From NCBI GenBank assembly GCA_016285885.1, contig JAEERP010000004.1, positions 1 through 64,000 on the forward strand: a stretch of 64,000 bases of DNA. The letters are read 5' to 3'. The notes beneath the pieces are model-generated. The model was not told where the DNA came from, made no database searches, and saw nothing but the letters and a program-made list of their open reading frames with translations. This document shows positions 1 to 59,226 of the stretch, in pieces (the stretch's first letter is position 1; each line of letters opens with the position of its first letter). The position numbers were made by a program, and so were the translations under genes. The stretch comes from Paludibacteraceae bacterium. GTDB lineage: Bacteria; Bacteroidota; Bacteroidia; Bacteroidales; Paludibacteraceae.

Positions 1-375
1 ACAGATAAAATTGTAAATTTGTAAAACTCGAAAGAAATAGATGTCCACAAGTCTATTGATTGGAACGTAATAAAACCATGCACGCCTTGTCAGCCCCCTG
101 TCACTGACAACGGCGAAGCCGTGCCAACCCCCAAGGAAAATGATGAGAAAAAAGCACGACAATATCCGCCTCTACCACGTCGATCACCTCGGCTCCACCT
201 CCCTCGTCACGGATGCGGAGGGGTTGATCACCCAGCACGTCGCCTACATCCCTTACGGCGAGGTCTTCGTCGAGCAACGCAACGGCTCTTGGAACACTCC
301 TTACCTCTTCAACGCCAAGGAGCTGGACGAAGAGACGGGGCTCTACTACTACGGGGCGAGGTATCTGGATCCTGC
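1..375 (+). repeat. Rhs cassette repeat, copy 1 (leader plus core)
   Basis: Copy 1 of a long direct repeat also found at about 1657-2103 and 3407-3868. It has a non-coding leader of about 140 bases followed by DNA coding for the Rhs core (DHLGSTSLVTD, YGARYLDP). Nucleotide identity to copies 2 and 3 is high until about 375 and is then lost, where the tip begins to vary. The window edge cuts the left end. The repeat is GC-rich compared with the AT-rich tip that follows, which suggests it is the recombining part. Confidence 0.85.
80..124 (+). other. Conserved hairpin in Rhs cassette leader, copy 1
   Basis: GCACG at 80-84 pairs with CGTGC at 120-124, and inside it TTGTCAG (87-93) pairs with CTGACAA (104-110) around a ten-base loop. 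The same nested inverted repeat sits at the same distance before the ATG in the other two cassettes. It could be a transcription attenuator, an RNA structure or a recombination site; nothing in the sequence decides between these. Confidence 0.6.
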
Positions 376-1156
376 GGGGGCGATGTGGTTGAGTGTGGAT
401 CCTATATTCCATGTGGGGGCTAGTCCTTATGCTTATTGTATGGGGAATCCTATCAAATTATTAGATCCTAATGGCAAAGAAGAATATTTTTCTGACGATG
501 GAACCCATTTGGGGAATGGAACTAACGCAGATGACGAATCAAAGTACGTCGTAACAAGTAAAGCAGATTCAAAATTGATTAAAAGAAACAAAAAAAACGG
601 AGGCACAACAGATGTAAAAGATTTAAATTCTGCGTACAAACTGCCAAGTGATGTGGTGTTAAGTGAGGCACTTGATGTATTGGAAAGAACGGGAGAAGAC
701 GGATATAGAGAACATAGTTCTTTGGTCGGGAAAAATGGTGAAATACATAAAGGTCAACCCGGAGAAGCTGTTACAAAAGACACAGAAACGGCGACAACAA
801 CATTTCCTTCCGTTACCGATGACAATGAAATAGAGGCTTCTATTCATTCTCATCCAACGAAATATTTTGCGTGGGAAGAAAGTGGATATTTGCGAAAGCG
901 TTCATGGAGTGCAACTGAAGCTAGTGATGTGGATGTCGCTCCGTTTTCTCGATATAATTGTAATATAATTGTCGGGAAAAAGGGTCATGCTAAATACATA
1001 CTCTCTGGAGCTAACTCAGTTCCTGCTTATGCGCCTATAGGTGTTGAGGATAACCGAGAAATGGGGATAGGCATATACGGAAGAAAAATTGAAACAGGGC
1101 AGAGTCCCGATTTGTGGTTAAATGAATCTGCCGTAAAAAAAATCCTAGGAAAATGA
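140..1156 (+). CDS. Orphan Rhs tip with JAB/JAMM-like C-terminal toxin domain
   Basis: 338 residues, far shorter than a complete Rhs protein: only the end of the Rhs core is present (residues 12-110, with DHLGST, YGARYLDP, LSVDP and LLDPNG). The variable tip (about 111-338) contains HSHP at 236-239 followed by S262-D263-V264-D265. This is the HxH...SxxD arrangement of JAB/JAMM metal-dependent peptidases, seen in polymorphic-toxin C-termini (Toxin-JAB1/DUF4329-like). An upstream glutamate in the GKNGEIHKG segment could complete the site. By inference it is a toxin fragment that is a donor or remnant rather than a self-delivering protein, because there is no signal peptide and no Rhs repeats. 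The ATG lies just after a conserved AAGGAAA and is kept in all three cassettes. The next gene overlaps it by four bases (ATGA), as in toxin-immunity pairs. Confidence 0.8.
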   Translation: MMRKKHDNIRLYHVDHLGSTSLVTDAEGLITQHVAYIPYGEVFVEQRNGSWNTPYLFNAKELDEETGLYYYGARYLDPAGAMWLSVDPIFHVGASPYAYCMGNPIKLLDPNGKEEYFSDDGTHLGNGTNADDESKYVVTSKADSKLIKRNKKNGGTTDVKDLNSAYKLPSDVVLSEALDVLERTGEDGYREHSSLVGKNGEIHKGQPGEAVTKDTETATTTFPSVTDDNEIEASIHSHPTKYFAWEESGYLRKRSWSATEASDVDVAPFSRYNCNIIVGKKGHAKYILSGANSVPAYAPIGVEDNREMGIGIYGRKIETGQSPDLWLNESAVKKILGK

Positions 1157-1605
1157 AAAAGATTTTTTTTGTTGTTCTGTTTCTACATTTCATTAGTTCA
1201 GCAAAATCGAATGATGAAAATTACCTTCATTTAGATTTTGTTATACTAGAGAATGGAGAATGTACAGGAGAAATTGACAGTTTTTTTTACTATAACAAAG
1301 TATCATGTTCTTATGTAAAAGTAAAAGAGTATGTACATCATTATGGTGGTGTAGATATATTGGCCGAGGATTATGAACATATAGTTCATTCTGACACTAT
1401 AATGTTTTTTATCAAATATCGAGATGAAGATAACGGAGTTAATTGGTCAGAGCCTATAAAAGTTCAAAACAAACCATACGCCTCTTTTTGTGTGGAATTA
1501 AAAGGCACTTTACGCAAAAAAAAGAGAAAAAGAATGTATTTTTTTGAAAAAAACATCAAAATGGGTTGTTCTCAAGTTAGTGCCGCAAAGGTAATAGAGC
1601 TATAA
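1153..1605 (+). CDS. Small exported protein, candidate immunity protein for the JAB-like tip
   Basis: 150 residues, no recognised family. The N-terminus (MKKIFFVVLFLHFISSAKS) is a signal peptide without a clear lipobox cysteine, so the product is probably periplasmic or secreted. The start codon overlaps the stop of the Rhs tip gene (ATGA), so the two are translationally coupled. Base composition is strongly AT-rich like the toxin tip and unlike the Rhs core, so the tip and this gene look like one transferred unit. The immunity role is inferred from position only. An export signal on an immunity protein would mean that protection is needed outside the cytoplasm. Confidence 0.6.
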   Translation: MKKIFFVVLFLHFISSAKSNDENYLHLDFVILENGECTGEIDSFFYYNKVSCSYVKVKEYVHHYGGVDILAEDYEHIVHSDTIMFFIKYRDEDNGVNWSEPIKVQNKPYASFCVELKGTLRKKKRKRMYFFEKNIKMGCSQVSAAKVIEL

Positions 1606-1656
1606 ATTCAACCAACAGCTATAATTCACCTCAAAAATTCATCAACAACAAATGCA

Positions 1657-2103
1657 TTGAGTGATTTGTAAAAACAAAAGGAATAGATGTCCATAAGTCT
1701 ATTGATTGGAACGAAATAAAACCACGCACGTTTTGTCAGCCCCCTGCCACTGACAACGGCGAAGCCGTGCCAACCCCCAAGGAAAATGATGAGAAAAAAG
1801 CACGACAATATCCGCCTCTACCACGTCGATCACCTCGGCTCCACCTCCCTCGTGACGGACATCGACGGCGAGATCACCCAACACGTCGCCTACATCCCTT
1901 ACGGTGAAATATTCGTCGAGCAGCGCAACGGCTCTTGGAACACCCCTTACCTCTTCAACGCCAAGGAACTGGACGAGGAGACGGGGCTCTACTACTACGG
2001 CGCACGCTACCTGGACCCAACCCATGCCGCTTGGCTCTCTGTCGATCCGTTGTTCGAGAAGTATGTGGGGATGACGCCGTATGGGTATTGTGCGGGGAAT
2101 CCA
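1657..2103 (+). repeat. Rhs cassette repeat, copy 2
   Basis: Second copy of the leader plus Rhs core. The leader starts near a GTAAAAACAAAAGGAATAG segment, and similarity to copy 3 continues through the YVGMTPY and CAGNPV codons at about 2103. It is more similar to copy 3 than to copy 1: both read DIDGEITQ, EIFVEQ and EKYVGMTPY. Confidence 0.85.
1726..1770 (+). other. Conserved hairpin in Rhs cassette leader, copy 2
   Basis: GCACG (1726-1730) pairs with CGTGC (1766-1770), with inner arms TTGTCAG (1733-1739) and CTGACAA (1750-1756). The loop differs from copy 1 by one base while both arms are unchanged. Confidence 0.6.
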
Positions 2104-2837
2104 GTGAAGATGGTGGCCCAGATGGGGAAGCCCCCAAATCACTTATTGAATATCGTGGGAATGGAGTATTCGGAATTAATAAAAGCAACCTATCTAACGC
2201 CACACAACGCCAGATGAATCTGGAGAATAATGATCCGAAATATTGGCGTCCTGGTGAAATAGGGGTGAATACAACGATTCTTTCGCTCTCTTTTAAACCA
2301 TACCGTTATGACGGGAAATTTCCCGGGATAGATCCTGCAGATAGAAATAGAACTCACACCGAATGGGTAGAACCTCCGCTTACTAAAAAAGGATTACCAG
2401 ACAAAAGGCATAAACCAGCGCATTATGTAACTTTCAATTATATGGGCAAAGCTCCGGTAGGAGGAAAAGCATTTGCCTATGGTACAATTGCTGTTGACCT
2501 TGTCATTGTGGCGTTCCAAAACATTCAGTCATATAAGATGTACTCAGATGTGACAAATTTGGACAAGCAAACGAAAGGTTTAATACGAGCATATGATATA
2601 GTACATAAATATGTCTCGGATGGAGGTTCCCTTCCTTCTGAGTATAATAATTCGGACGGATATGGGAAATTGGTTAATTATTTGTTTCAGGGTTCATCTG
2701 GTCTAAATGCACTTCAAGACCTTAAGGGACAATATCATATAGATGATACGATACAACAAATCGGCAATCAAATTTTAAAGGATAAAGGTCGATATGATGA
2801 GAAAAATGGCACATACAGGTTTTATATTGAGGATTAG
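1786..2837 (+). pseudogene. Orphan Rhs tip, unknown C-terminal domain, frameshifted
   Basis: The Rhs core starts at the ATG at 1786 and is intact to the codons for NPVKMV. Between 2116 and 2117 one base appears to be missing: restoring an A would give the usual VDPDGEAP, whereas the actual frame reads VAQMGKPP and stops at 2217. The restored frame stays open to a stop at 2837 and gives a tip of about 240 residues that I do not recognise (it contains NATQRQMN, DPKYWRPGE and YHIDDTIQQ). The break falls exactly at the core/tip junction. No slippery heptamer is visible, so programmed frameshifting is unlikely; a silent pseudogene or an assembly error fits better. The small lipoprotein gene downstream overlaps its end. 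Confidence 0.75.
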
Positions 2838-3285
2838 TATAGTTTTTTTGATTATTATGCAGGGTGTATTCTCTTCGTGCGATCACAGATTCAATACCAC
2901 AAAGAATATATGTGGAATTTGGGCTATACACGAAGATAGTTCCTATATGGAAAGAAGTGTTGTACCAGATTTAGTTGGGAATTTGCTATATATTTACAAG
3001 AAAGGTGTGTTACTACCAGCAAATGAATATTCGATAACAGGAGAAGACAACATGTCAATCGAGGAAAGACAAAAGAAGAGACAAGAACTAAATGTGTTAA
3101 GTGAAAAAGAGTCTGAAGGTACTTGGGATGTCATAGGTTCTACTCCAGATTCAGTGATTTTCATAGCTCCAAATCATCCTTTAAGTGGCAGATATAAAGT
3201 CCATATCTTTCAGGAGGATTTTCACGAATATATGATATTATCAAATGATTCGACTTATTTGTTCTGTTATAGGGCTGGCTACTAA
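2794..3285 (+). CDS. Small lipoprotein, candidate immunity protein for the second Rhs tip
   Basis: 163 residues from 2794; ATGs at 2797 and 2806 are also possible starts. The N-terminus has basic residues, a hydrophobic stretch (ILRISIVFLIIMQ) and a lipobox ending in GVFSSC, so it should be a lipoprotein. It overlaps the end of the frameshifted tip gene by 44 bases in another frame. The rest is unrecognised; it includes a GIWAIHED segment and ends in LFCYRAGY. It is AT-rich like the tip. Immunity function is inferred from position. The gene is intact although its putative toxin is not. Confidence 0.6.
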   Translation: MMRKMAHTGFILRISIVFLIIMQGVFSSCDHRFNTTKNICGIWAIHEDSSYMERSVVPDLVGNLLYIYKKGVLLPANEYSITGEDNMSIEERQKKRQELNVLSEKESEGTWDVIGSTPDSVIFIAPNHPLSGRYKVHIFQEDFHEYMILSNDSTYLFCYRAGY

Positions 3286-3406
3286 AGAAAGTCCCATTGT
3301 GTCGTCATCTCTTTGGGTTTAAAACTTCTCTGTAAAGCATAAATTATCCCTGCCAAGGATGCCTTGTGGGGGAAGTATAGTCCCTACAAAATTCAAACAA
3401 AAGAAC

Positions 3407-3868
3407 TACAGATAAAGATTGTAAATTTGTACAAACCCGAAAGGAATAGATGTCCATAAGTCTATTGATTGGAACGAAATAAAACCACGCACGTTTTGTC
3501 AGCCCCCTGTCACTGACAACGGCGAAGCCGTGCCAAACACCAAGGAAAATGGTGAGAAAAATGCACGACAATATCCGCCTCTACCACGCCGATCACCTCG
3601 GCTCCACCTCCCTCGTGACGGACATCGACGGCGAGATCACCCAACACGTCGCCTACATCCCTTACGGCGAAATATTCGTCGAGCAACGCAACGGCTCTTG
3701 GAACACCCCGTACCTCTTCAACGCCAAGGAACTCGACGAGGAGACGGGACTCTACTACTACGGCGCCCGCTATCTGGACCCGACCCATGCGACTTGGCTC
3801 TCTGTCGATCCGTTGTTCGAGAAGTATGTGGGGATGACGCCGTATAATTACTGTGCGGGGAATCCGGT
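3407..3868 (+). repeat. Rhs cassette repeat, copy 3
   Basis: Third copy of the leader plus core, beginning with the same ACAGATAAA(g)ATTGTAAATTTG segment as the start of copy 1 and extending to the CAGNPV codons. Compared with copy 2 it differs at scattered bases only. The first codons read ATG GTG instead of ATG ATG. Confidence 0.85.
3489..3533 (+). other. Conserved hairpin in Rhs cassette leader, copy 3
   Basis: GCACG (3489-3493) pairs with CGTGC (3529-3533) around the inner TTGTCAG/CTGACAA pair. It has the same spacing to the ATG as in copies 1 and 2. Confidence 0.6.
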
Positions 3869-4592
3869 GGGGTTATGCGACCCAACTGGGATGAGTATAG
3901 ATGATGCATCAAAAGAAGACTGGGATGATAAAAAATATAAATTGTCTTTAACAATATCTGACTTAAACAATAAACTTTCTAAGAAGAAAGACAAATTAAA
4001 AAAGAATGAAGCCGAAGGTAAAAATGTCAATGGACTGAAATCAGATATATCTACGATTGAAGAACGGCTGTCCTATTTAAACAGGAAGTATGATGATATG
4101 AGAAAAATGGAAGATGATGCAGACCAAGTATATGCATTGAGACATCTTCCCGATGTTCAGGAAGCAAAACTCACAATGGAGAATGGAGTAATCTACATTA
4201 ATTATATTGACGATGACAATTTCTTCCATGAATCCACACATGCTTCCCAATATATGGCTGGAGATTTTGGTTGGATTATAGGAAATAAACCTGATGCATT
4301 TTTCTTGGTTGACATTGAAGATGAAATAGAAGCATACAAGATGCAGTATGCATATAGTGGGGCCGTAGCTATTAGTAAGGTAAATCAAAAATATGTGCGT
4401 GGGTTGCTAGATGCGGGGGGAAGTAGCATATATAAAAATCTTCCATCCATGTCGATAGGTAAAAACTCTATTGCAACTGATTTAAATAGAGCATATCCCA
4501 ACATGAATGATATTCACAAGGATACTGGTGATGGGGATCCTAATCAAACAGTTGGCAGTTATTTGCGGAAACTATTGATATTTCATAAATGA
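3549..4592 (+). CDS. Orphan Rhs tip with HExxH metallopeptidase-like toxin domain
   Basis: 347 residues. Residues 8-115 are the Rhs core (DHLGSTSLVTD, YGARYLDP, LSVDPLF, CDPTG). The tip starts with a lysine/glutamate-rich region that looks coiled-coil (about 130-185) and then has H227-E228-S-T-H231, the zinc-binding HExxH of metallopeptidases. An acidic helix with E257, E259 and E261 (EIEAYKMQY) follows and could supply the third ligand. By inference it is a proteolytic toxin fragment. There are no Rhs repeats and no signal peptide, so it cannot deliver itself as encoded. It overlaps the next gene by four bases (ATGA). The tip is AT-rich and the core GC-rich. Confidence 0.8.
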   Translation: MVRKMHDNIRLYHADHLGSTSLVTDIDGEITQHVAYIPYGEIFVEQRNGSWNTPYLFNAKELDEETGLYYYGARYLDPTHATWLSVDPLFEKYVGMTPYNYCAGNPVGLCDPTGMSIDDASKEDWDDKKYKLSLTISDLNNKLSKKKDKLKKNEAEGKNVNGLKSDISTIEERLSYLNRKYDDMRKMEDDADQVYALRHLPDVQEAKLTMENGVIYINYIDDDNFFHESTHASQYMAGDFGWIIGNKPDAFFLVDIEDEIEAYKMQYAYSGAVAISKVNQKYVRGLLDAGGSSIYKNLPSMSIGKNSIATDLNRAYPNMNDIHKDTGDGDPNQTVGSYLRKLLIFHK

Positions 4593-5029
4593 AAAAGAAG
4601 ATAATAGTTATATTCATATTGATTGCATTGATGTCATCATGCAAAATGATCCATGACGGCTTTTATCATAGTGGAGACTCTTTATATGTATTCCATGATT
4701 CGGAATTTATTGCGATAGATAGTGGTCATATTGGATGCTTTGATTATACACGGGGAAAGTATAGGGCCAAAGGCAATAAACTTGTGTTTTATCATGATTC
4801 CGTATCAAGAAAATTGGGTGCTGTAGGCATTGATTCTTTGTTTAGATATAGCAGGCAAATGGGTATGTTTCTATGTTTTGTGGGGCATCATGGCGAAGAT
4901 ACTACGACGCTCAACAAAAGACGATTCGTTAAAAGATTGGTAAAAATTGACACTTTATCACAATACGAGAAAGAATGGGTGCAATTCTTAAAGAGCGACT
5001 CGGTATATAGTAAAACAATTGAATGGTAA
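4589..5029 (+). CDS. Small lipoprotein, candidate immunity protein for the HExxH tip
   Basis: 146 residues starting inside the stop codon of the toxin tip gene. The N-terminus (KKKIIVIFILIALMSSC) is a lipoprotein signal with lipobox LMSSC. No family is recognised in the body, which includes a DSLYVFHDSEF segment and a basic stretch NKRRFVKRLVK. Immunity is inferred from coupling to the toxin gene and from its AT-rich composition. Confidence 0.6.
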   Translation: MKKKIIVIFILIALMSSCKMIHDGFYHSGDSLYVFHDSEFIAIDSGHIGCFDYTRGKYRAKGNKLVFYHDSVSRKLGAVGIDSLFRYSRQMGMFLCFVGHHGEDTTTLNKRRFVKRLVKIDTLSQYEKEWVQFLKSDSVYSKTIEW

Positions 5030-5145
5030 TTGAGAGATGTTCGTGGCTATTGGCTGGCAAATTTGTATCACCATGGCTAAAAACTCTCACCATCGCTATG
5101 GCATAACGTCGTCTAATCCCTATCTTCGCGGAAAACAATGTTGGC

Positions 5146-8100
5146 ATGAGAGGATTTGTGGAGAGAGTGTTTCTCTATTTTAGGCGACACCGCTTGGTGT
5201 TCGGCGCATCGCTTTGCGCGGTGGTGGGCTTGCTGGCCGTGGCGGTGTGCCATGTGCGCTTCTCCGAAGACATCGGGAAGTTCTTGCCCAAGGATGCTCG
5301 CAATGAGCGGGCGGACCGTGCCTTCCGCCTTTTCAGCACTTCGAATAGGGTGATGGTCTACGTCTCGATGGCGGATTCCACACCGGCGGATTTCCCTCTC
5401 TTGGAACAGGCTGCGGCGGAGTTCTCCGAAGCGTTGCGTTCCGCCGACTCCTCAGTCTACACCTCTGATGTTTTCCTGAAAGCAGACCCGGAGAGGGTGC
5501 TGGAAACGATGGACTTCGTCTTGGCGAATCTGCCGTATTACCTTGAACCGGAGGATTATAAACGTATCGATAGCGTCTGGTCGGACAGTGCGTTGGCACG
5601 TGTCATGCTGGCAGACCGCAACCAACTGATGTCTCCTATGGGAGGCTTTGCGCAGGAGATCGTCTTGCGTGACCCGTTGCACCTCTCATCCCCCGTCCTG
5701 AACAAACTGAACGCATTGCGCCCTTCGGAGGGGGAGAACATGAGGAATGGTTATCTGTTGGACAAGGAGGGGCGGGCGATCATGGTGCCGGTCTCTTCTT
5801 CCCTGCCTTCCAGCGAGACGCAAAAGAACAAGCAGTGGATCGCCTCGATCGGTGAGGCCGCGCGATCGGTGATGGATAAGTACGAGGGTAGGGTGAATGT
5901 CTCGTACATCGGACCGGCGGTCATCTCCGTAGGCAATGCGGATCAGATCAAGAGGGACACAATATGGTCCACCGTCATCGCTTTGTCGCTGATTGTCATA
6001 CTGTTAATCTTGTTCTACCGTGACGTGCGGGCGATTCTCCTCATATTGTTCTCCATCGCTTTCGGCTCATTATTCGGGTTGGCTTTCATGGCGTTGCTGA
6101 AGGAGGATGTGTCGGTCATAGCGATCGGCATCGGTTCGGTCATCGTGGGTATTGCGGTGAATTATCCGTTGCATTTCCTGGCGCACCTCAAGGAGGGACA
6201 TACCCGCCAGGAGGCGATGCGTGACATCGTGGACCCGCTCGTGACGGGTAACATCACGACGGTGGGCGCCTTCCTCAGCCTCCTCTTCATCCGTTCGGAG
6301 GCGATGCGCGACATGGGACTCTTCGCCGCCTTGCTTCTGGTGGGTACGATTCTCTTCGTGCTCTTCGTGTTGCCTCATTTCTTCGCGGATAAGCTTTTCA
6401 AGGGCCGGACGGGTGGTAAACTGATGTTCGGCAAGATCGCTAATGTCCAGTTCGAGAAGAACAAGGTGGCGGTTTGCCTGATCGTCCTTCTGACCTTCCC
6501 GCTCCTCTATTTCAGCACCAAGACCCAGTTCGAGACGGATATGAACGCTATCAACTACATGACGCCCGACCAGCGTGTGCGGATGGCGAAGCTGACGAGT
6601 GAGACGGAGTCAGGCTTGTCGAAGAGCTTCTGTGTGGCGGAGGGCGGAACGATGGACGAGGCGTTGCGTCGTTACGAATCCGTGTGGGGCTCCATGGATA
6701 GTCTCTTGTCGGCTGGGACGATCTCCAAGGTGACGGGCATCAGTCTCTTCCTGCCTTCGAAGGAGATGCAGGAGAGACGGGCGACGGTATGGAACGATTA
6801 TTGGGCCAACCATCCTATGGCGTCGGATATGATCCGGAAGCAGGCTGTGGCCGCAGGTTTTGCGACGGAAGCGTTCGATCCCTTCCTCACGATGGTGGGG
6901 AAACGGTACGGCGTGGCGGAGGAGGATCATTTCGAACCTATCCTACGTTCCCTCGCCAAGAACTATGTGATGGAGGACGATGGGAGATGGTATGTCTATT
7001 CGATCATGGAGCATGAACAGGATGCCTCGGAGGTTATTGCGGCTTCGTTGGCGGGAAGGGATGAGTCACTCTCCTTCTTCGACGGACGCTCCATGCTGAA
7101 TAAGTTGGTGGATACTTTGTCGAGCGATTTCAACAATGTCCTCTTCCTATGCGGTTTCATCGTCTTCCTCTTCTTGCTGATCTCCTTTGGACGTTCCGAG
7201 TTGGCGCTTCTGGCGTTCGTCCCGCTGACGGTGGGATGGGTCTGGATCTTAGGGTTGATGGGTTTGCTAGATATGCGTTTCAACATCGTCAACATCATCC
7301 TCGCCACCTTCATCTTCGGGCAGGGCGATGACTATACCATCTTCGTCACGGAGGGCTTGATGCACGAGTACGCCTATGGGAAGAAGGTGCTGGCGTCGTA
7401 CAAGAATTCGGTGATGCTCTCCGCCCTGATCATGTTCATCGGAATCGGCACGCTCATCATCGCCAAGCATCCCGCCATGCGTTCGTTGGCGGAGGTGACG
7501 ATCGTGGGCATGTTCACCGTCATCCTGATGGCTTATTTCTTCCCGCCGTTGATATTCAATTGGTTAACTAAGTCTAAGGGCAAAAACAGACTCATGCCTA
7601 TCACGCTGAAGAACCTGCTGTTGACCATCGGTTGCTTTGCGGTTTTCTTTGTGGGGACGATCTACATGTCCCTTTTAGGATTCTTTGTTCTGACGATTGG
7701 AGGTAAGACGGAAAGTCATAAGGCATTCTATCACAGGCGGTTGTGTGGCATCTTCCGTGTGTTGGTTAAGCTGATGCCGGGCGTGGAGTGCCATGTGCAT
7801 AACCCGCAGGGGGAGACGCTCGATCGCCCTGGCATAATAGTTTGCAACCATCAGTCGCACCTGGACTTGCTCTATACATTGATTTTGAGCCCTAAGATTG
7901 TGTGCCTGACGAACAAGTGGGTATGGAATTGCCCGTTCTACGGGTGGATCATCCGTTATGCGGAGTTCCTGCCGGTTTCCGACGGGTTGGAGCAACACGA
8001 GGAGGAGTTGAAGGCTGCGATCGACAGGGGCTATTCCATCCTGATCTTCCCGGAGGGCACCCGTTCGGAGGATTGCTCCATCCTACGTTTCCACAAAGGC

Positions 8101-8664
8101 GCATTTCACCTTGCGGAGCGTTTCAATGTGGATATTATTCCTTTGCTGATCCATGGCATCGGACATTTCTTCCCCAAGAAGGAGTTCCTGTTGCGCAAGG
8201 GTAGGGTGGATGTGAAGTTCTTGCCGAGGATCTCACCGGAGCATCCTTTCCGAAAGGAGGTGAAGTCGCTGAAGAGCGCCCAGTTGACGCAACACTACTA
8301 TGAAGAAGAGTATGCGAAGTTCGCTTCTGAGCTCGAGACACCCGACTATTTCAGGGACTTGGTCTTGCATAATTATATCTACAAGGGACGTGCGGTGGAG
8401 CGCAACGCACGGCGCACATTAGAGGCGTTCGATTCCCTCTCCGCCAAGATTGCGGCATTGCCTGAGGAAGGGGAGGTGTCTCTCCGTGAGGAGGGGCAAG
8501 GAGAGTTCTCCCTGCTGGCGGCCCTGACGAAGAAACGGTTGCATATTGTGGCGGAGATGGATGACGAGAACCTGCTCGCCCTTGCCGACAATTGCGCTTC
8601 CAAACCGGCGAACCTGACCTATCGGTTGAAAGCAGGGGAGAGCCAATTGTCGTCACACACCTAA
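5146..8664 (+). CDS. MMPL/RND-type exporter fused to a PlsC-like acyltransferase
   Basis: 1172 residues. Residues 1-820 are an RND-superfamily MMPL exporter: an N-terminal membrane helix (about 13-35), a large periplasmic loop, a bundle of helices (about 275-420), a second loop and a second bundle (about 660-820) that includes GQGDDYTIFV. After two more hydrophobic segments comes an acyltransferase domain of the PlsC (1-acylglycerol-3-phosphate acyltransferase) type, with NHQSHLD (the HX4D motif, near residue 902) and FPEGTRS (near 970). Separate MMPL and acyltransferase genes occur in aryl-polyene/flexirubin clusters; here both are in one chain and no other cluster genes are adjacent. By inference it acylates and exports a lipid or acyl product at the inner membrane. 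Its end overlaps the convergent ATPase gene by 12 bases. Confidence 0.8.
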   Translation: MRGFVERVFLYFRRHRLVFGASLCAVVGLLAVAVCHVRFSEDIGKFLPKDARNERADRAFRLFSTSNRVMVYVSMADSTPADFPLLEQAAAEFSEALRSADSSVYTSDVFLKADPERVLETMDFVLANLPYYLEPEDYKRIDSVWSDSALARVMLADRNQLMSPMGGFAQEIVLRDPLHLSSPVLNKLNALRPSEGENMRNGYLLDKEGRAIMVPVSSSLPSSETQKNKQWIASIGEAARSVMDKYEGRVNVSYIGPAVISVGNADQIKRDTIWSTVIALSLIVILLILFYRDVRAILLILFSIAFGSLFGLAFMALLKEDVSVIAIGIGSVIVGIAVNYPLHFLAHLKEGHTRQEAMRDIVDPLVTGNITTVGAFLSLLFIRSEAMRDMGLFAALLLVGTILFVLFVLPHFFADKLFKGRTGGKLMFGKIANVQFEKNKVAVCLIVLLTFPLLYFSTKTQFETDMNAINYMTPDQRVRMAKLTSETESGLSKSFCVAEGGTMDEALRRYESVWGSMDSLLSAGTISKVTGISLFLPSKEMQERRATVWNDYWANHPMASDMIRKQAVAAGFATEAFDPFLTMVGKRYGVAEEDHFEPILRSLAKNYVMEDDGRWYVYSIMEHEQDASEVIAASLAGRDESLSFFDGRSMLNKLVDTLSSDFNNVLFLCGFIVFLFLLISFGRSELALLAFVPLTVGWVWILGLMGLLDMRFNIVNIILATFIFGQGDDYTIFVTEGLMHEYAYGKKVLASYKNSVMLSALIMFIGIGTLIIAKHPAMRSLAEVTIVGMFTVILMAYFFPPLIFNWLTKSKGKNRLMPITLKNLLLTIGCFAVFFVGTIYMSLLGFFVLTIGGKTESHKAFYHRRLCGIFRVLVKLMPGVECHVHNPQGETLDRPGIIVCNHQSHLDLLYTLILSPKIVCLTNKWVWNCPFYGWIIRYAEFLPVSDGLEQHEEELKAAIDRGYSILIFPEGTRSEDCSILRFHKGAFHLAERFNVDIIPLLIHGIGHFFPKKEFLLRKGRVDVKFLPRISPEHPFRKEVKSLKSAQLTQHYYEEEYAKFASELETPDYFRDLVLHNYIYKGRAVERNARRTLEAFDSLSAKIAALPEEGEVSLREEGQGEFSLLAALTKKRLHIVAEMDDENLLALADNCASKPANLTYRLKAGESQLSSHT

Positions 8665-47226: not shown

Positions 47227-50200
47227 TTATTTCTCCTCTTTTTTTGCCATATTTATTAATTCATCTGTCATTTTATCAAGAACAACGTCGCGAATTATTT
47301 GTTTCCCATTATTAGGCTTCCCAAGTTTTTTAGAAGTGGATATAGCTCCGGCATCTCCGACGCCTTGCGTTACAGCATTATAAATATTTCCTTCTATAAG
47401 ATCACCAATAAAATGACAGCCATCCGCAACATAACCACTTGCGGTGCCAAATTCTTTAGCTGCACCACCAATAGGAGCACCAAATCCTGTAGCTGTAGAA
47501 ACTACAGCTACACCATCAGCAACATCGCTAGAGAGTTCAGCCATATCTCCAAACTTATGAAACATAGCGCCAACTTCTTTTCGTCCACCAGGACAAAATC
47601 CTCCTTGATTAGCAGCATCATAATTTCCCTCTTCAAATATCGATCCATCTTCTAACCACTCCATAAAATTCCACGCTACATTATGGTTGTTTCCCTTTGT
47701 TCCTTCAAATTTTTTTGCCTCAACAACAATTTCTATACCTGATTCCGTTTGATTAACTGATACGGTCTCGACACTTGCTGAATTATAACCATTTTTATTT
47801 ACCCACTTTTGGACCTTGCCTCCGTTCTTTTCTGCATATTCTCTTGCTTTTCGAACATTTCTGTCTTCCCAAGGTTCATTCCCATCCGGATCCACTAATC
47901 TAATCGGATTCCCCATGCAATAGTTATACGGGCTCATCCCCACATATTTTTCGAACATAGGGTCCACACTCAGCCAACGGGTATCCTTCGGGTTGAGGTA
48001 GCGTGCGCCGTAGTAGTAGAGACCGGTCTCCTCGTCGAGTTCCTTGGCGTTGAAGAGGTAAGGGGTGTTCCACACGCCGTTGCGCTCCTCGATGAAGACC
48101 TCGCCGTACGGGATGTAGGCGACGTGCTGGGTCACCTCTCCGTCGGCATCCGTCACGAGTGCGGTGCTACCCAAGTGGTCAGGGTGGTAGAAGAAGATAT
48201 TACCCTCGATGTCGGTCTTTTCTGCTACGGATGAAGGATCAGAGCTCTCCAATTCGTCAAGAGGTGTATTGCCGCAACAGAAGGATCTGTTTTCCTTCCA
48301 ATCCTCGTTCTTCTCCAGGTTGTTGGTCACGCCGAACTCCTTGTATCGACCTTCTATTTGATCGTTCAGCGTATCGTACTTGCTGCTGTAGTCGATCTTA
48401 CGGATGCCGGCACCCGCCATCTCCACACGTCTTGGATCGGCGCCGAAGCTGCCGAAGTCGCCTATCTTGCTGGCGATGCGTTCCGTTCCGGCGTAGATGT
48501 GCTTGGTGTACTCGCCTCCGTTCTTCAGTACGAGGTACGGTGAGACGTAGGCCACGAATTTGGCGTCGAACTTCTTCTCATCGCCCGCACTTGATCCGTT
48601 GATGTAGAGTTCCTCCATGCCCGCCGACATCTTGACGGTGCGCTCACCGTTGGCATCGTAGAAGTAGTTGGAGACGTGCCCGTTGTCGTTGATGGCCAAG
48701 AGGCGGTTCTCTTCGTCCCAAAGCAGTTGTCGGAGGTTGGCCTGCGGCAACTCCTCCACACCCTCCTTGGCCTTCTTGCCTGTCGCCACTTGGGTCTGGT
48801 TGCCGTTTGCGTCGAAGGCGTACTCGCTGCGGGTGTTCACGATCTTGTCGTCTTCCACTGGTGCTTCCGGATCTTCACCATCCTCCACAGCTACACGGTA
48901 CTCGCTGACGGATATGGAGAGGAGGCGGAACGGATCGTTGTTCTCCCTGTCGTATTGGTACTTCAAGTCATGTCTCGCCTTCAGCGTTCCTGGGAACTGC
49001 AGGTTGGTCTGCTCCACGTCCAACTTCTTGGAGGTCACGTTGTAGAGTTCGTCGTAGGCCATGAGGAGGTTGTACTTCGCACTCTTCCCATCCGCTCCGC
49101 CAAATGTTCCGCTGGCTTTGACCAGACGGTTCCAAGCGTCGTAGGTGTATTCATGTGTGACACCGCCGCCGATGGTCTTGCCATCCTTGGTTTTCTGCGC
49201 CTTACCCTCATTCTCCAATTTCGTGACATTGTCGAGGTTGTCATAGGAATAGGTATTGTTCATGATGTTACCCTCCTGGTTCGACACAACGAGGTTTTTA
49301 AGTCTACTACGTTCATTGGAGTATTTGTATTTCGTCTCCACGCCGTTGCCATATTTCAAGTATTTCCTCTGCTCGTATTTGTCGTACCCGATCTCCTCGA
49401 CATAGTCGTAGGTGAAATCCTTCTTGCCGGAAACGGAAGAGAGGAGACCGCCAAGGTTGTATCGGTAAGAGACGATTTCTCCGTCCGGGTAGGTCATGGT
49501 CTGGATACGGTTGTGGCTGTCGTACGTCCACTCGGTGGTGTAGGTGGCCACGGCCTGGTTCGGGATGACGAGGGTGCGTCGCTGCTTGGTCACCTCGCCC
49601 ATGCGTCCGTAGAAGAACTCGGTGGCGCCGGAGCCGTCCTCGATAAGGGCGAGACGTCCCACGCGGTTGTGCGGTGCGTTCACGCCTCCGTAGGTGTAGG
49701 TGACGTTGTTCCCTGGATGGTTAGGGTATTCCACACCCTCTAATCTGTTCTTGGCATATCTGTAGGTGATGAACTTGTTCACCTCCGCAAGGTTTGGCGT
49801 CTGCTTCTTTACCATGTTGCCCGCCACGTCGTAGACGAAGGTGGTGAGACCCGCGGAAGGGTGTTCGACGCTCAGCTTGCGGCCCGCCATGTCGTAGGTG
49901 TAGGAGGTCTTGTTCTGGGCGGCATCGGTCACGGAAAGGAGTTGTCCGATCGGGTCGAACACATAGTGGATGGCATAAACTTTCTGCTCCATGGACTCGG
50001 AGTCCTCGCCCTCCATCTTTTTGTAGTCGCGTGCGGTGCGGACGGTCTGTCCTGCGCCGTTGGTGTAGGTGTATTGTTCGTTCTTCTTAGGGTCTGTTAT
50101 TGTGGCCTTCATGAGCCCGTCCTCTATGGAATAGTCCATTTCTGTTACGGATGGCACTCCTTTTAATTCCAAATTCTCATCTCCGCTTTCGTCTCCCGGC

Positions 50201-53200
50201 AACGTCTGCGATAGCGGGCGGTCGATGGCGTCGAAGGTGGAAGATTTGAGCAGTTCGTTGTTGAACGGGATTATATTTGTGGCGTCAGCAAGTTCGCAAG
50301 TATTCGGGTGATAAGTCTCGATGGTTCTGCCGAGGGCGTCGTACTTGACACGTCCGGAGACGATCATCTTTTCTCCCTTTCCATGGATTTCCGCATCCTT
50401 CTTCACCTGGTACGGGCGTCCGAGACCATCCACGTGGGTGACTGTTTGCAACGGATTGTCAGGATGCTGCGGGTCGTAATGGTTGGTCACGGCATAGGAA
50501 CTCTTATAATCCTCACCCAGAACATACTTGTATGTGATGGTGTAAGGCACGCCGTCGCTTTGCTCGTTCGGTGCGACAATGGTGTCGGTGCGGCCGAGGT
50601 CGTCGATATGGTAGCGCACGGTGTACCCGTTCATGCCACGCACGGTGCGAGGGATACCGTAACGGTAGTCGTAGTCCTCCATCTCGCTGTGGTATCCGAA
50701 GGCGTCGGTGACGCGCTCCGGGTACATGTGGTACTTCCGGTCGTATTCGTACTCGAAGAAGGAACTATCCTTCGCAGGCTCTATCTCCTTTTCCGAATTC
50801 ATCTCCTCCGTAGGGAATGTGCGGCGAACCATGTTACCATATTGGTCGTACTTGAAGTTAAACACGGCCTTCTTGTCCCCGTCTAGGTGCTGCACCATCT
50901 GGGTCATGGCCGTAGGGGTATGTTTGTCTTTGTATTCGGCGGTCACCTTGCGATAGAGCGTTCCGTCGGTTCCCTTGACTTCGACACTGGTGGCTAAGCC
51001 CAGTTTCTGGTCGGAATATTGGATGACGTCGTCATAACCCCAATTGCCGTCCTTGTCTTGAACCAAATCCCTGAAGCTGTAGGCCGAGAGGTTACCGTAG
51101 CTCTTCGTGTAGTCGTAGGTCTCGTGGGTCAGTTCCAGACCATCCTGCTCTTTCGCCTCATATGCGGTGGTCTTCTTCTCCTTAGGGGCGGAGAAGAGGG
51201 AGATTCCATCCGTGATTTGTTTCAGGTCGTTCAGCTGGGATCCGCCGGTGATGCTATAGTGTGCGTAGGCGGTGCTATTCTCCTTGAACTTGATCTCCTT
51301 CGTTTCCCCGGTGTTTTCATCCTTGGCATAGCCGACCACAAGGTTGTGGATCGGTGCGCCTGCGGTGAGGTAGTGTTGCACGTCGTACTCCGCGATGACG
51401 GAGCGGACAGGGTTGCCCTGTTCGTCCACGTTGGTGGTGGTCACCTTACCGAAACCGAGGAACTCACGTTCGCGGCGGTCACGCTTACCGTTCTCGTAGC
51501 TGAAGGTTGTCCTCATGGCCGGGTTTATGCCCGTCGCGTCGTTGACGGTCAGCGCGGACATGGCCCACTTGCCGCCCGGGTGGTCGGTCGTCGGTGTCGT
51601 GTGCGCGTACTCGATGGTGAACTTTCCGCCGAATGGGTTGGTCACGGACTCGAGCTTGTTGGTGGCACCGATACGAGAATAGCGAACACGAAGACTATTA
51701 AAATCTTCAGAGCTAACCATGTCTGCAAAACCATCACCATCCACATCCTGGTAGGAGAAATGCTCACCGGACAAGCCGACACCAACGCTACCGCCTCCAG
51801 AACCAGAGAATTTCACAGGAACCATAACTATCTGAACAGTGACAGAGACTGTCGCATTCGCATTGGTGGAAGCAGATGTCGAAGACGTGCTGCTCAGCTG
51901 ATTCAATCGACTCCACGTATATGGAGATGTGAACCCACTTCCCGTATTAAATTGCACTTTCGAACCAGTCCCTTCAACCATCACAAGATCAGGCAACCCA
52001 TCACTATTAACATCTCGCAAATCGTACACCGTTTTCGCATCCGTTCTATTCACACTCACACCAGCAGAGAAACTGGACGCACCAATATCAACACACACTC
52101 CTAGTCCCTTATCCGACGAACTGGATTTCCTGATAAATCCAGCGTCGAACGAGAATGGTCCCACGAAAGAGTAGCCCGTATTATATGCGACAGATAGTTG
52201 TCCATCATTGACGGCCACCTTGTCAGGAAGACCATCACCATTCATATCCACCATGGTGAAATGGGTTATATCGTAAGCATACGCATTAAAATTAGCACTA
52301 ACAGAGGCCTGAGCTTTATTAAACGATATTGCATTTAGCTGTACCTTATTCCCGTTGTTTTCCGCACGTCCACCAGCGGACTTACCGCCATTCGGTTCGT
52401 AATGTTGCGGCATGCCTCCCAATCCAAATGTGAGAGCATCACTTATGCTAAAATCTGTACAATTGCCCTTATAGCTCTTTCCATCAAATCCTCCCACCGA
52501 ATTGGTATACTGTACCTTCTTGCTAGTCACAATGTCCGGATAGCCATCTCCATTCAAATCCGTGAATATCTGCGTAGCACCACCCTTACCGTCAGACTTA
52601 CTACCCGTCAAATTCACACCGAAAGCACCACCACCCAACATTTCCGTGTTGCTGGAACTTTCAGAAAGAACAGGGATAGCGAATGCAGGGGATCCTTTCC
52701 CATCATCAACTATAGACGCCAAAGCTTTCTGCATTTTCTTCAATGGATCCTCCACGATAACATGTTGCTCGCCCAAACGTGAGCTATGCATCGAATCCGC
52801 ACAAACGTAACAGTTCGGATCCTGACCTATCCAACCCTGGCTTTGGGCATCAGGTCGCAACGGCACAAACGTCATATCATCCAATCCATACGTTGTTCCA
52901 TCTTCCTTCTTCGGGAGATTCCCATCCGCATCTGGTTTAAACATATCAATCAACACCTGCAAACCCAATTCATCCGTTCTTATTGGTGTTTTGCATCGTT
53001 CATCCCCTGTCGCACTATATGCGAACATTCCCCAACCTTTGTACATCGGTCCAAAACCGTTATCGGACACTTTCGAATACATGTTCACAGAGAATGTCTC
53101 GTCATATACATTGTTCCTTTCCTCGATTTTATTGCCAGCCTCGTCTTCCGTGATGGAGACAAGCGTGTCCACATAAAATCTAAGTTGCGCATTCTCATCC

Positions 53201-56200
53201 GCATAATCGTCAAAGTCATAATAGAATTCGAACCACACCTTTTCCCCAGACTCGTATGTCAAATCCTTATACGGATATACAAACGGAGGATCGAAACTTT
53301 GTGATTGAGTGTTGTATTTGAACGTGTATGAGGCTATTTTCTCCTTCTCTGTTCCTTTAAGAGACAAACGGACAGTATAATCCTTATCCATCCTTTTCAG
53401 AACTGGGCTTACCCTCAAACTGTCAACGGCCTTCTCATCAAGATTCGGCAGAACATATGGTGCGGACACATGGTTGACACTATTCGAATAATGCATATAC
53501 GAAACAATCATTTTTTCGTCCTTGTCCGATTTCCCATCGCCGGAAACGTAATGAATCGACGGATTCCAAGAAAGGTCCTCGACTGCCACATTCGTATTCG
53601 AGTACAATTCAAATACAATATTGGAAAGGAACACATCATGCCCTGTTTCGTCATTATGTTTTCTGTATGACAGCAAATCGATTCCGCCCAGGTCTATATC
53701 CTCATCGGCTTCTTCGTTCCAAGCAAATGTGTGTTTGTAAATAGTATCCCTTAAGAAATCTGGATTAAGTTCCTCCTCGTATACGATCTTTGGATTGCCG
53801 GATTCATCCACCGTTTCTATTTTCTTTGTCAACAACGAATCCGAATACAAAATAACACGGGCAACGACATCATCAGAGAGCAAAGGTTTCTTGAATCTGC
53901 CTTGCAACGTTGCGGATTCGTAAACTGGAGTACCACTCTTTGTCGACGAATCGACGATTGCCACTGAACTGGCAGTGAACAACAATTGGTCCGCAACAGA
54001 ATACTTCCCGTAGGATTTGCCTTCTGGATCCGTCCCTTTTTCTTCCACATATGTAACAGTAGGAGTCCACAACACAACATCGTTCTCTCCGTTGGCGAAT
54101 TTCTGATTACCGGACTGGACACGGAAATAAATCTTGTCACCCTTTTTCACTCCACAACTTCCAGTGGCATCAACAGTTTCTCCATCGCCTAAATGGGAAG
54201 GAGACATTACATATTCGCCGTTTTTTTGTATCGAAACATATACACCGTCTCGATTATCGGACAGTGTGGTACCCTCCTTCTGCACCAATTTCACAGTTCC
54301 GCCTATCTCGATCGTTCCTTCAAATGGCGCACACCAAACCCTTACAATATCCTGAAGCGGAGATTCCTTAGCTTTCTGTTCTTGCTTTTCTTGCAGTTGC
54401 TTCTGCAACTCAGCCATTTCTTCCGCATTCTCACTGTCGAAAGAGAGTTCTATATTGCCCGAAACATGGAGCGGATTCGCCGTACCATCACTAGATACCT
54501 CAAAAACCGGTTTCCCATCAACCAACCTATTGAAATAGACACTCCCATTATTTACCAAATCGACAAAACCATCGGAATTGACATCGGAGAAGTAGACATC
54601 CGTCTCAGACTCGGAACTATTATAATCCCCGCCTCCCACAAATATGGCAGGGCCCCATCCAAGATGGACTTTTCCTCCAAATCCGTTTGATTTATTCACA
54701 CTGTGCGAGATGGAAGAAATACCGTTGACCCGCTCCTCATTGCTGAAAGTGCCATCTGCATTTTGCGCCATGTAATACACTTTATCATCCCTCACATATA
54801 CCTTATCTGGCAACCCATCTCCATTCAAGTCTATAAACGAGGAGATGCCGTTCGACTCAGTTCGACCATGGGTGTAACTGACACCGCCCGTCATACTTTT
54901 AGTCGGGCTATAATCTCCCAATCCACCGCCAACATAGGTATTGAAGGAGCCTGAGACAGAATGGTTACCTCCCAATGCAGTGACATTACTTCCCGTTGCT
55001 TCATTGATAATATCCTTTAATTTCTCAATGATACTATTGCCATCACTACTACATGAGATGGTTTTCTCTGCGCCATCGAAAAAGGGATCGTATATAGCAC
55101 TTCCATTCTGGATATCCATTCCCTCGCTATTCTTAGTACCCTTGCTATATTCCATTTTATGGGAAGTAAAGGCATTTTTCTTGCTATCCAGTTGAAAGAT
55201 GTCACGCAACAAGTTTACACCGAACAAGCCGACCTCATAATCGAACTTATACCCTCTCAAATACTTACCTTCGAAATAGATGTCCACACTTTCCAACAAT
55301 TTGTTCGACGAAGTAAGATATCCATAACGCGCATCACTTCGTTTAATGTTTTTCTCCACTCCATTATTCAGCACCACGACAGTATGCGGAGTCTCCCCTG
55401 CATTTCCCGCAACCACGGAATCCAAATAGAGAGCGGTGGAATAGAGACCTTCGGCACTTTGCTCAAAATCTGTCCGATACTTGTATTCCACATAGTCTCC
55501 ATGAATCTCCTCTATACGGGTCAACCTCCACTCCGAGATGACCGTGTCATATTTTTCATTATATTGATTATTTCCCATGACAACACCAACGATGGTGGTG
55601 TCCTTCGTCACATCGCCATACTCGTCCTTCGTCTCCGTGATTTTGTAAGCACCATAGGTGTACTTCGTACCTCGACGGTCAGTCACCTCCCAGATGTAGT
55701 TCGATGGTTTGTCACCGATACGCACAATCTCCGAAAAGGCGTTTTCCTTGCGGGGATAGAACCTCACCTTGCCACTCTTACGTTCCTTGCCCAGATTACG
55801 ATGCGCCAAACCGATGCCATCCTCCAGGAGCATCTGCCCGTCCATCACGTAGGTCTCCGTCTCAGTTCCCGGATTATATCTCGGCACACCCCAACGGGTA
55901 TCGACCGTGATGGATGAGGTGGAAAGGTTCCAGCCTTCGCCCAGCCATCCGCTACCAGCGTCGCTGCTGTATTGGATCGACAGGTTCGGTGCCATGCCGT
56001 TGCGTGCCGGTGGCATCTCTAAACTGTAGGAGAGGGAAGCGGTACCATTGTTGTTGGCTTGAGGAGCTTCGATCATCTGTACCTTCGTCGTAGGGTCGGC
56101 GGCCTGCAGGTCGCTCATCATGGTCGGTGTGAAACCCTGCGTCTCAGGAGACTCCGGCGCTTGGATCACACCGTTGATCATGTCGGTGAAGTGGGTGGTG

Positions 56201-56664: not shown

Positions 56665-56993
56665 ATTTTTCTATTCGATTCTCTTTCCTCATCCAACCTC
56701 TTTTGCCAAAGGGGACAATTTTATTGACATTGAATGATTAATACTTTTCTTTTGTTTTTTATATTTTGCAAAGTTGCAAAAAAAATATATATTAATCACA
56801 AAAAAAATGAAATTTGTGTTCGAAATATATATTGATTGCATATGTCAATTGCTTTTGGGGATTCAAACATCCCATCAATACTCAATTTAACATTTCCATA
56901 TGTATGTGTCGCGGATGTTTTTCTATTGTGTACCAATAGGGTAGGGGTGCTCTTTGTCACCCTTATTCCTCATTGCCGAATAAGAGTTTTCAA
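56665..56993. other. Upstream region of the large Rhs gene
   Basis: AT-rich, no gene seen. On the minus strand CAACTTTG (56769-56776) with a TTTG about 22 bases earlier is a weak promoter candidate for the Rhs gene. Confidence 0.35.
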
Positions 56994-57180
56994 TCAATGT
57001 GTAAGACTCCTCCATACGAAGTATACCAAACTTATAATAAGACAGATGGAAATAACTTCAGGAATCTCTTCGACACATATAGAATCATGCCTCCTACTGG
57101 GAAAGATAAAGAGAAGTACAGTTCCTAGTACAGACAATAAAAACACTTAGTAATATAATATTTAACAAATTTCTTTTCAT
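56994..57180 (-). pseudogene. Possible small membrane protein, frameshifted
   Basis: From the ATG at 57180 the frame reads KRNLLNIILLSVF and then diverges. If one base is added or removed near the GTTTTTATTG run, the other frame continues with LLSVLGTVLLFIFPSRRH and EVISICLIISLVYFVWRSL to a TGA at 56994. Together this gives a two-segment hydrophobic protein of about 62 residues. It could be a broken immunity-like gene left between the two large Rhs genes. Low certainty. Confidence 0.3.
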
Positions 57181-57195
57181 TTCTTGTGAGGCATT

Positions 57196-57720
57196 TTATG
57201 TCTTGTTCACTTGCACATTGAAACACCTTTTCTGGGTTCGGGATAGTTCGACCGAACTTAACAGATTTTGTTGTTTTTTTAATAGTAGTAACTTGACAAA
57301 ATACATAGGCGAAAGATTGTAATCCCATAGTTTCATGTCAACCGCCCCCCTTTGCTCTTGTCCCTTGATGGCGAAGGAGGGGTAATAGATGGATCGGTCT
57401 ACGAAATAATTTTGTCCCGCCTTTTGTATTTCGGTGGTGAAATGTTCGTCAGCGGTTGCCCTGCAATAGACGTCGTAGATGGCTTGTTGTTTGCTTACGG
57501 CTTTGGCGAGTTGTTCGCTATTCATGTGGGTCAGGTCTGCGATTTCTTTGTCTCCTTGCAGATTGAGCAGGCAGTTTTGGAAACTGATAAGTAAATCCCT
57601 GCTCGCCTCCGTACTGAAAATCTTTTTGAAGGCGAAATTAATGTGGAAGTTTATGTGGCGACTAATCGCTATCCTGGATATGCATATGTTCTTCTTTAGT
57701 CAGCGGGAAAAACTGCAAAT
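57196..57720 (-). pseudogene. Rpn-family nuclease/transposase relic, N-terminal part
   Basis: Minus-strand translation gives FAFKKIFSTEASRDLL, then LLNLQGDKEIADLTHMNSEQ and QQAIYDVYCRATADEHF, and then TTEIQKAGQNYFVDRSIYYP. This is the catalytic half of Rpn/PD-(D/E)XK recombination-promoting nucleases (D in YDVYC; E-x-Q/K in TEIQKA). No start codon is visible before FAFKKIF, and after IKGQEQRG the sequence no longer follows the family and stops at 57196. The C-terminal half is thus lost here, while a C-terminal half alone survives at 29680-29937. Confidence 0.7.
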
Positions 57721-57874
57721 TTTTATGAACTTTCACATAGGGTCAAATTGTTCTTTGAATGCAGAGATGTCCTATGCAAATTATAGTATAGATGCTACTT
57801 AAAAGAACTTAGGCTAGGGTGGCTGAGAAGTGCTACGCTTTGCCTCATTATTTTGTTGGATTTAAGTTAGTTGT

Positions 57875-57914
57875 CTTAAGTTAGCAACTTGTTCGAAAAG
57901 GCGGCAGTATTATA
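57875..57914. repeat. 40-bp repeat, copy B (partner at 30161-30200)
   Basis: Partner of the 30161-30200 repeat, lying about 155 bases upstream of the Rpn relic at 57196-57720 in the same relative orientation as copy A and its relic. Confidence 0.7.
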
Positions 57915-57918
57915 ATTC

Positions 57919-58491
57919 TCAATTCTGCTTTTTTGCAATACGGGGTTTACCATGGAAAAATAGGATACCTCCAAAAAACAGAAGAAAGATGCTATAACCT
58001 ATTATGAAAGATGGAGCATACTTAGACAAAAGGGCACTTCTTCGTAATTTGGGTAATTGTTTTTCATCTAATGTGAAATCATCATCTACTTGAGCTAAGA
58101 GATTCTCTTCCACATAATTTCTAAAATCAGATAATTCTTTTTTTGACATATTACTTAAAATACCACCACCCTCATCTACGCCCATTTTTTTATAATTACG
58201 GAATTCAACTTGACAAATATTATCAAACTTTCTAATAATAAAATCAATACTCATGGACAGTTCCTTTGCAAAAACATTGAACTTGGTCGCATTATTAAGT
58301 TCATACACATCTTCAGATATAAATTTACCTTTACCCATGATTTTTAAAAAATCATGGGTAACTACTTCATATCTTGCCACTTTATATTCATAGACCAAGC
58401 TTGAACATTGAGGATGATAAGAATACAAAGCAACAAATGTAAATGGCCATAAACAACAAAGAATGGAAAAAAGAACAACAAGTTTTCTCAT
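57919..58491 (-). CDS. Two-helix membrane protein of unknown function
   Basis: 190 residues. Membrane segments at the N-terminus (VVLFSILCCLWPFTFVALYS) and near the C-terminus (FIIGYSIFLLFFGGILFF), with about 115 residues between them that should face the periplasm (GKGKFISEDVYELNN, DEGGGILSNMSKKELSDFR) and a short basic cytoplasmic tail. No family recognised. AT-rich. It is the second gene after the partial Rhs gene on the same strand, separated from the 58626 gene by about 130 bases. It may be another immunity gene or a partner of the first; this is inferred from position. Confidence 0.55.
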   Translation of the reverse strand: MRKLVVLFSILCCLWPFTFVALYSYHPQCSSLVYEYKVARYEVVTHDFLKIMGKGKFISEDVYELNNATKFNVFAKELSMSIDFIIRKFDNICQVEFRNYKKMGVDEGGGILSNMSKKELSDFRNYVEENLLAQVDDDFTLDEKQLPKLRRSALLSKYAPSFIIGYSIFLLFFGGILFFHGKPRIAKKQN

Positions 58492-58625
58492 GCAAATTAT
58501 CTATTAAAATTTGCCCTTTCAGGGCGCTGAGGGAGAGGTGTTTGTTAGACGGATGTTTCGTAAAGATTTTAAAGTTGGGGGTGTGTGAGAAATTGTCTGC
58601 GTGAATACACTGGGAGAAATCCTTT

Positions 58626-59225: not shown

Positions 59226-59226
59226 T

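Follow-up and report, generated by a model that had tools for sequence, protein, structure and literature searches.

The three Rhs orphan units at the left end of the window (the whole 64,000-nucleotide stretch analyzed here, positions 1-64,000 of contig C12 from a Paludibacteraceae bacterium genome designated G000) most probably form the 3' end of an array, array A, within a polymorphic-toxin island of gut Bacteroidales. The units would be cassettes that recombine through their cores, are translated, make up an immunity shield retained by selection, and hold toxins as a secondary stock. The arrays of this island look like an actively kept shield combined with a stock of spare parts.

Architecture of the Window Array

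All three units lie before position 5029 on the forward strand (24-1605, 1664-3285, and 3408-5029), and each consists of a leader, an Rhs core, a toxin tip, and an immunity gene. Leader plus core is 90.4% identical between units 1 and 2 (356 bp), 89.8% between units 1 and 3 (374 bp), and 94.4% between units 2 and 3 (445 bp). TIGR03696 matches each unit (74.1, 66.4, and 72.2 bits; cut-off 32.5), a Pfam scan of the three gave no match above its cut-offs, and no signal peptide was seen on them, as judged by eye. The cores have a guanine-cytosine (GC) content of 58-59%, compared with 39% for tip 1 and 35% for tip 3. The three-unit array described by a first-pass annotation of this DNA is therefore present in the window, but it is part of a larger set of 14 core-bearing units in G000, and it is truncated at window position 1, which is the end of contig C12.

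The leader of unit 1, an inter-cassette segment at 24-139, contains a 39-bp element (87-125) followed by AAGGAAA. Immediately 5' of the shared leader stretch, at 14-21, is a promoter-like TAnnTTTG. The start codon and core (140-451, the TIGR03696 region) lead into a toxin tip at 452-1156, in which SIHSH is invariant among three aligned sequences. The SIHSH/HSHP motif is presumed to be JAB-peptidase-like, a guess at the level of the motif. This tip had no Pfam match above the cut-off and no convincing sequence match in the PDB, and its structure model is unreliable, with a predicted local distance difference test score (pLDDT) of 42. The immunity gene (1153-1605) overlaps the toxin stop through ATGA.

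In unit 2, the leader (1664-1785, element at 1733-1771) precedes a start codon and core at 1786-2217. The frame of the core ends at 2217 while the tip continues in a different one (2214-2837), so the toxin is broken; an intact paralogue at C34:35662-36777 is 79% identical in amino acids over 221 codons of the piece. The immunity gene (2794-3285) overlaps the end of this tip and remains open, with ratios of nonsynonymous to synonymous substitution rates (dN/dS) of 0.29 and 0.20 against two paralogues. The earlier description of a tip followed by an overlapping small gene in every unit thus holds for the overlaps, with the qualification that the second toxin is disrupted.

Unit 3 has its leader at 3408-3548 (element at 3496-3534), its start codon and core at 3549-3866, and its tip at 3867-4592. 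HE.TH..Q and D..DE..AY are invariant among four aligned sequences, and the HESTH motif suggests a putative zinc-peptidase-like toxin, again a motif-level guess; the structure model reaches a pLDDT of 83, yet found no significant fold match. The immunity gene (4589-5029) shares the ATGA overlap with its toxin stop and has a 171-bp match (85%) in an immunity-like array of another genome, G009_C22. Its N-terminus is lipoprotein-like by eye, and many immunity proteins, including those starting at 2794 and 4589, similarly begin with a hydrophobic stretch followed by Cys, which suggests a periplasmic or envelope site of action for the toxins.

A Shared Leader With a Conserved In-frame ATG

The most conserved part of the leader is the 39-bp element, from TTGTCAG to GCCGTGCC. 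A 24-base piece of it, searched with up to three mismatches and with a reversed-pattern control, matched 18 times in G000, every time inside the arrays; the control gave none. The first-pass annotation had proposed a search of related genomes for the leader, and 36 matches of this piece occur across 8 of the 16 genomes of the genus. The relatives compared here are mostly metagenome-assembled genomes of gut Bacteroidales (Paludibacteraceae and others), drafts with one genome per species. In them the element also precedes units with other core joints, immunity-like genes alone, and a few spots away from arrays.

The leader is not an ordinary interior part of complete rhs genes, the finding that had been named in advance as fatal to the donor-array idea: it is absent from all four long rhs genes (one on C34, three on C12), whose matches begin at the core, and it has no match in the additional rhs genes, belonging to other groups, that G000 has on contigs C6, C33, and C35. 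The element stands 79-82 nt 5' of the core in 14/14 core-bearing units, and despite small length changes all 14 have AAGGAA and then an ATG in frame with the core (11 located by script; the other three by alignment, as the script chose an earlier ATG). The observation that ATG and AAGGAA occupy the same place in all three window units is borne out. Of the 12 complete units, a script placed the immunity start of 10 at -50 to +16 nt from the toxin stop; coordinates give -41 (unit 2) and +6 for the other two. The leader may thus supply a translation start for each cassette, with coupled translation of the immunity gene at the toxin stop, a role proposed from the arrangement of these signals.

Two orphan units of Dysgonomonas sp. 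PF1-14 (L095 13159-13580 and 14751-15171) have about 425 bp in common (91.8%), including a strong hairpin leader 5' of the core that is unrelated to the G000 leader. This locus suggests that shared inter-cassette leaders arise repeatedly.

A Probable Island and Its Chromosomal Site

A search of the G000 genome returned 22 leader-plus-core matches, four of them the cores of long rhs genes, and 18 leader-only matches; these fall on the C12 left end, the C1 right end, and either end of C34. In total, G000 has 14 core-bearing units (three in the window) and four leader units from which the core has been cut away; three of these now head an immunity-like gene, the fourth a frame of 601 codons. A full-length rhs gene on C34 (10902-20150, 3083 codons) is followed by array A with seven units. 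Its 5' neighbors are a 1688-amino acid SpvB/Rhs-repeat protein, two proteins without domain matches, a protein with a type IX secretion system sorting tail, and a tyrosine recombinase. A second array, array B, begins about 150 bp from the recombinase on the opposite strand.

These pieces probably belong to one island in the order array B, tyrosine recombinase, four genes, full-length rhs, array A, and MMPL-type gene, with contig joins deduced from array ends and flanks. The chromosomal flank in the window (5052-8664, forward strand) holds the gene beside which the island is inserted (5146-8664), which is taken to be of MMPL type from its sequence. In G001, G004, G005, and G013, the counterparts of C1 (to ~12693) and of C12 (from ~5052-5090) are separated by one unrelated gene only, and in G012 they are 228 bp apart; the island is absent at this flank in all five, and G011 aligned on the C12 side only. 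The near adjacency of the flanks in relatives indicates that a single insertion is flanked by C1 (right end) and C12 (left end). In G009, moreover, the head of the C34 array is found at the MMPL-type gene, and the stretch read there contains neither a recombinase nor a full-length rhs. Judging from array ends, flanks, and G009, C34 probably lies between C1 and C12, hence to the left of the window, and the three units of C12 would continue its array A. The prediction of a matching long rhs gene outside the window and to its left was correct in that a gene with the same core exists on C34; its position on the left is probable from these array ends and flanks.

Core Exchange of Tip and Immunity Blocks in Draft Relatives

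The core of the C34 full-length gene (VTDIDGEITQHVAYIPYGEVFVEQRNGSW) is 82-94% identical to those of the 14 cassettes, with identical runs of up to 66 nt, as compared with 73-85% for the cores of three long rhs genes on C12. The cassette cores differ among themselves by 2-21%. In a core tree (n = 52, two cut units left out), the C34 gene groups with 12 island cassettes and with G009 and G008 cassettes (support 92/83), and the C12 genes stand apart, although support is weak for 29 of the 49 inner branches and the bootstrap had yet to converge. The cassette cores are thus distinct from those of the long genes in the window, as had been noted at first sight.

Two natural recombinants in draft relatives indicate that exchange of tip-plus-immunity blocks takes place in the cores, the region to which the first-pass annotation had assigned recombination. 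Contig G050_C88 has a mosaic structure, matching a different G010 contig on each side: positions 1-650 are 98-100% identical to G010_C165 and positions 901-2400 are 98-100% identical to G010_C157, with a core stretch between the halves (701-900) at 78-90%. Similarly, the head cassettes of G002_C72 and G007_C9 are 96-100% identical through the leader and the start of the core, after which the core drops to 78-92% and no match between their tips is listed. Exchange from core to core, with circles, was proposed by Jackson 2009, in the part of that work available here. By homologous recombination between cores, tip-plus-immunity blocks could enter, leave, or swap place. Each block would bring along the leader of the next cassette, which would account for the shared leader on every unit. 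The window array may have grown in the same way, to judge from the exchanges in relatives' drafts.

Cassette blocks of G050 C88 (L211/L212) and G010 (L060, L072) are 97-99% identical, and the two genomes are assigned to two genera; either recent transfer or misbinning would explain this.

A Recombinase Beside the Array

The recombinase has Arm-DNA-bind_5 and Phage_int_SAM_5 domains. It is present in 5 of the 16 genus genomes including G000, the orthologues in 4 of the 15 others being 49-68% identical in amino acids (the G010 row carries one stop), and in 1 of 393 sampled genomes of the order, G000 itself. In four of the five, the contig with the recombinase also carries the start of a cassette core on the opposite strand, which in G014 and G010 is reduced to the first core codons before the contig end, as read by eye. 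The G007 contig breaks at the array head; up to that point its identity to G002 is 98.6%. Beside the recombinase (G000:C34:33782-33809), AGTMAC direct repeats spaced about 11 bp were noted by eye, likewise in G002, G007, G014, and partly G010; they are possible arm-type binding sites.

A different mechanism might follow from this arrangement: the recombinase, with the repeats at the array head, would capture or shuffle cassettes at the 39-bp element in the manner of an integron or of recombinase-associated acquired interbacterial defence (rAID) arrays, and rAID-type arrays would arise from it by toxin loss. Besides the linkage and the repeats, several units with nothing in common further upstream show an abrupt onset of conservation at TTGTCAG, and the position of the element is kept in units with different core joints. 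However, the observed change-overs fall in the cores rather than at the element, which speaks for ordinary homologous recombination; the recombinase may move cassettes or the island alone. Furthermore, the 3' homology ends of the cassettes are scattered from -210 to +109 relative to the next element, and arrays occur on stretches without such a recombinase, for example G009_C33 and C22. Copies of the element in relatives show stem mismatches by eye, and no clear compensatory change was visible across 60 copies. Identity as an integron integrase was rejected, with 52 and 32 bits against integron model cut-offs of 265 and 435. Recombinase-driven shuffling is thus rather unlikely, though it fares best among the alternatives to core exchange.

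Possible Tip Supply to the Full-length Gene

The pure form of the donor store proposed in the first-pass annotation, in which unexpressed units only feed tips to a full-length gene, is improbable. In its favor, the cassettes share their core with the C34 gene, including the longest identical runs mentioned above, and experiments in Salmonella give a precedent for orphan tips supplying a full-length rhs gene (PMC3967940, as far as the source was available). In the favored reading, too, loading of tips onto the C34 gene through the shared core is plausible in principle, and the toxins may constitute a secondary stock for it. Nevertheless, the conserved in-frame ATG after AAGGAA in 14/14 units and the purifying selection on immunity genes (see below) speak against the description of the units as silent. 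In addition, a donor store alone leaves the four core-less units that retain the leader unexplained, and no recent donor event is listed.

Immunity Genes Can Outlast Their Toxins

Eleven immunity gene pairs have no stops and dN/dS of 0.12-0.47; one pair has saturated dS, and the remaining ten lie at 0.17-0.47. Four of the 11 include a G000 gene that has lost its toxin. These substitution ratios show purifying selection on the immunity genes, including those that have lost their toxin. They may be retained by selection against the toxins of sister or rival cells, and they can outlast their own toxins, as the toxin-less units show. An example of the outcome is G009_C22 (L057 8927-18854), where 14 picked immunity-like open reading frames of 28-41% GC lie on one strand among three element copies; three stretches of 700-790 bp match G000 immunity genes at 86-94%, and no recombinase of this kind is found within the stretch read of this rAID-like array.

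The same data make it very improbable that the units are decaying, functionless debris of past displacement. The broken toxin of unit 2, the four core-less leader units, and the variable 3' homology ends would fit decay, yet frames are open for 11 of 12 toxins and 12 of 12 immunity genes in complete units, and immunity dN/dS stays below 0.5. Slimmer still is the chance of an assembly artefact of repeated sequence: contigs C1, C12, and C34 each end in a cassette, but the cores and tips differ, related arrays occur in other genomes, and, at 90-92% identity to the first units of C12 and C1, the cut units that terminate C34 are marked as distinct copies.

Several observations weigh against core-recombining, translated cassettes that also stock toxins. 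An in-frame ATG is present in 37 of 71 units outside G000 and missing in many G010 and G050 units, so possession of a start codon is lineage-dependent rather than universal. No excess of sigma-70-like sites was found, TAnnTTTG occurs in only 6 of 14 leaders, five of them of common descent (shuffle mean 0.74; 0/200 shuffles reach 6), and the window leader copies fold weakly as RNA (z -0.7 to -2.1). Because the contigs with the recombinants are draft assemblies in which cores recur, they might be misassembled or misbinned. For toxins or long frames, five comparisons give dN/dS of 0.23-0.69, one on 17 codons, and are too few for a contrast with immunity genes. Finally, no recent movement of tips into a full-length gene appeared: among the full-length/orphan tip pairs listed, none exceeds 56% identity. 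This comparison covered 255 rows (27 full-length, 184 orphan, and 44 with a cut 5' end), with some genes present in two collections; excluded were near-identical copies between collections, matches that spanned <60 residues or stopped short of residue 70, and pairs in which neither genome bore a G handle. With one genome per species in the set, recent tip moves would be missed.

Other Features of the Window

Three full-length rhs genes of another group lie in tandem from 47230 to 64000 and on to C12 79566 (3147-3194 codons, cores 87-91% alike), with no element copy nearby. The first (47230-56670, reverse strand) has SpvB, TcdB_midN, and RHS repeats, and a core 75-85% identical to the island cassettes; the second (59230-64000 in the window, reverse strand) continues to C12:68739. 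One of the C12 genes, when scanned, showed FG-GAP, SpvB, TcdB_midN, and RHS repeats. Between 40000 and 43000, direct repeats of 243-258 nt at a spacing of ~1790 (74-84%) perhaps reflect tandem gene duplication.

Relation to Known Systems

In structure, the island is an Rhs orphan-tip array. As in the Rhs C-terminal displacement arrays of the cited accounts (PMC2935791, PMC3150448, and PMC3967940, each available in part), a full-length rhs gene is followed by GC-poor units of core fragment, tip, and immunity gene, and cores are proposed or shown to be the homology for exchange. G000 displays partial cores with AT-rich tips and downstream immunity genes, an array 3' of an rhs gene that shares the core, and, in draft relatives, core exchange. 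Unlike the orphans in those accounts, which have partial cores of varying length and usually lack initiation signals (typically, not by requirement), 14/14 units of G000 have one standard 5' joint and leader, with in-frame ATG and AAGGAA; a second, opposed array beside a recombinase is also unlike them. The standard leader with its start codon, the opposed arrays, and the recombinase make the island a variant.

The rAID arrays of gut Bacteroidales, in the portion of PMC12247911 available, likewise have a tyrosine recombinase adjoining the array and co-oriented short low-GC orphan immunity genes; they also have a conserved intergenic sequence, to which the 39-bp element may correspond. They are described as immunity-only, whereas in G000 core-bearing units outnumber core-less ones by 14 to 4 and a full-length rhs gene is present. 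Polyimmunity loci (Zhang 2012, PMC3482391) are tandem immunity genes, several near XerC/D-type recombinases and also found in Bacteroidetes; according to the part of that source available they are never interrupted by toxin cassettes, whereas in G000 toxin-bearing and toxin-less units have a leader and an array in common. Neisseria maf islands (PMC4287609) also place C-terminal toxin/immunity cassettes (mafB-CT), some with their own initiation codon, after a full-length toxin gene; the toxin family is another, and the available part of the source does not mention a shared leader or recombinase. No published description of the leader or island was found among titles and abstract openings of open-licence papers. 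The island is best filed with the Rhs C-terminal displacement arrays, as a variant that grades into rAID-like immunity arrays.

The locus unites Rhs orphan-tip arrays with recombinase-associated orphan immunity arrays. Because one leader heads both toxin-bearing and toxin-less units, the path from weapon stock to shield is traceable stepwise in living relatives, and the natural recombinants offer testable breakpoints for cassette movement in gut Bacteroidales.

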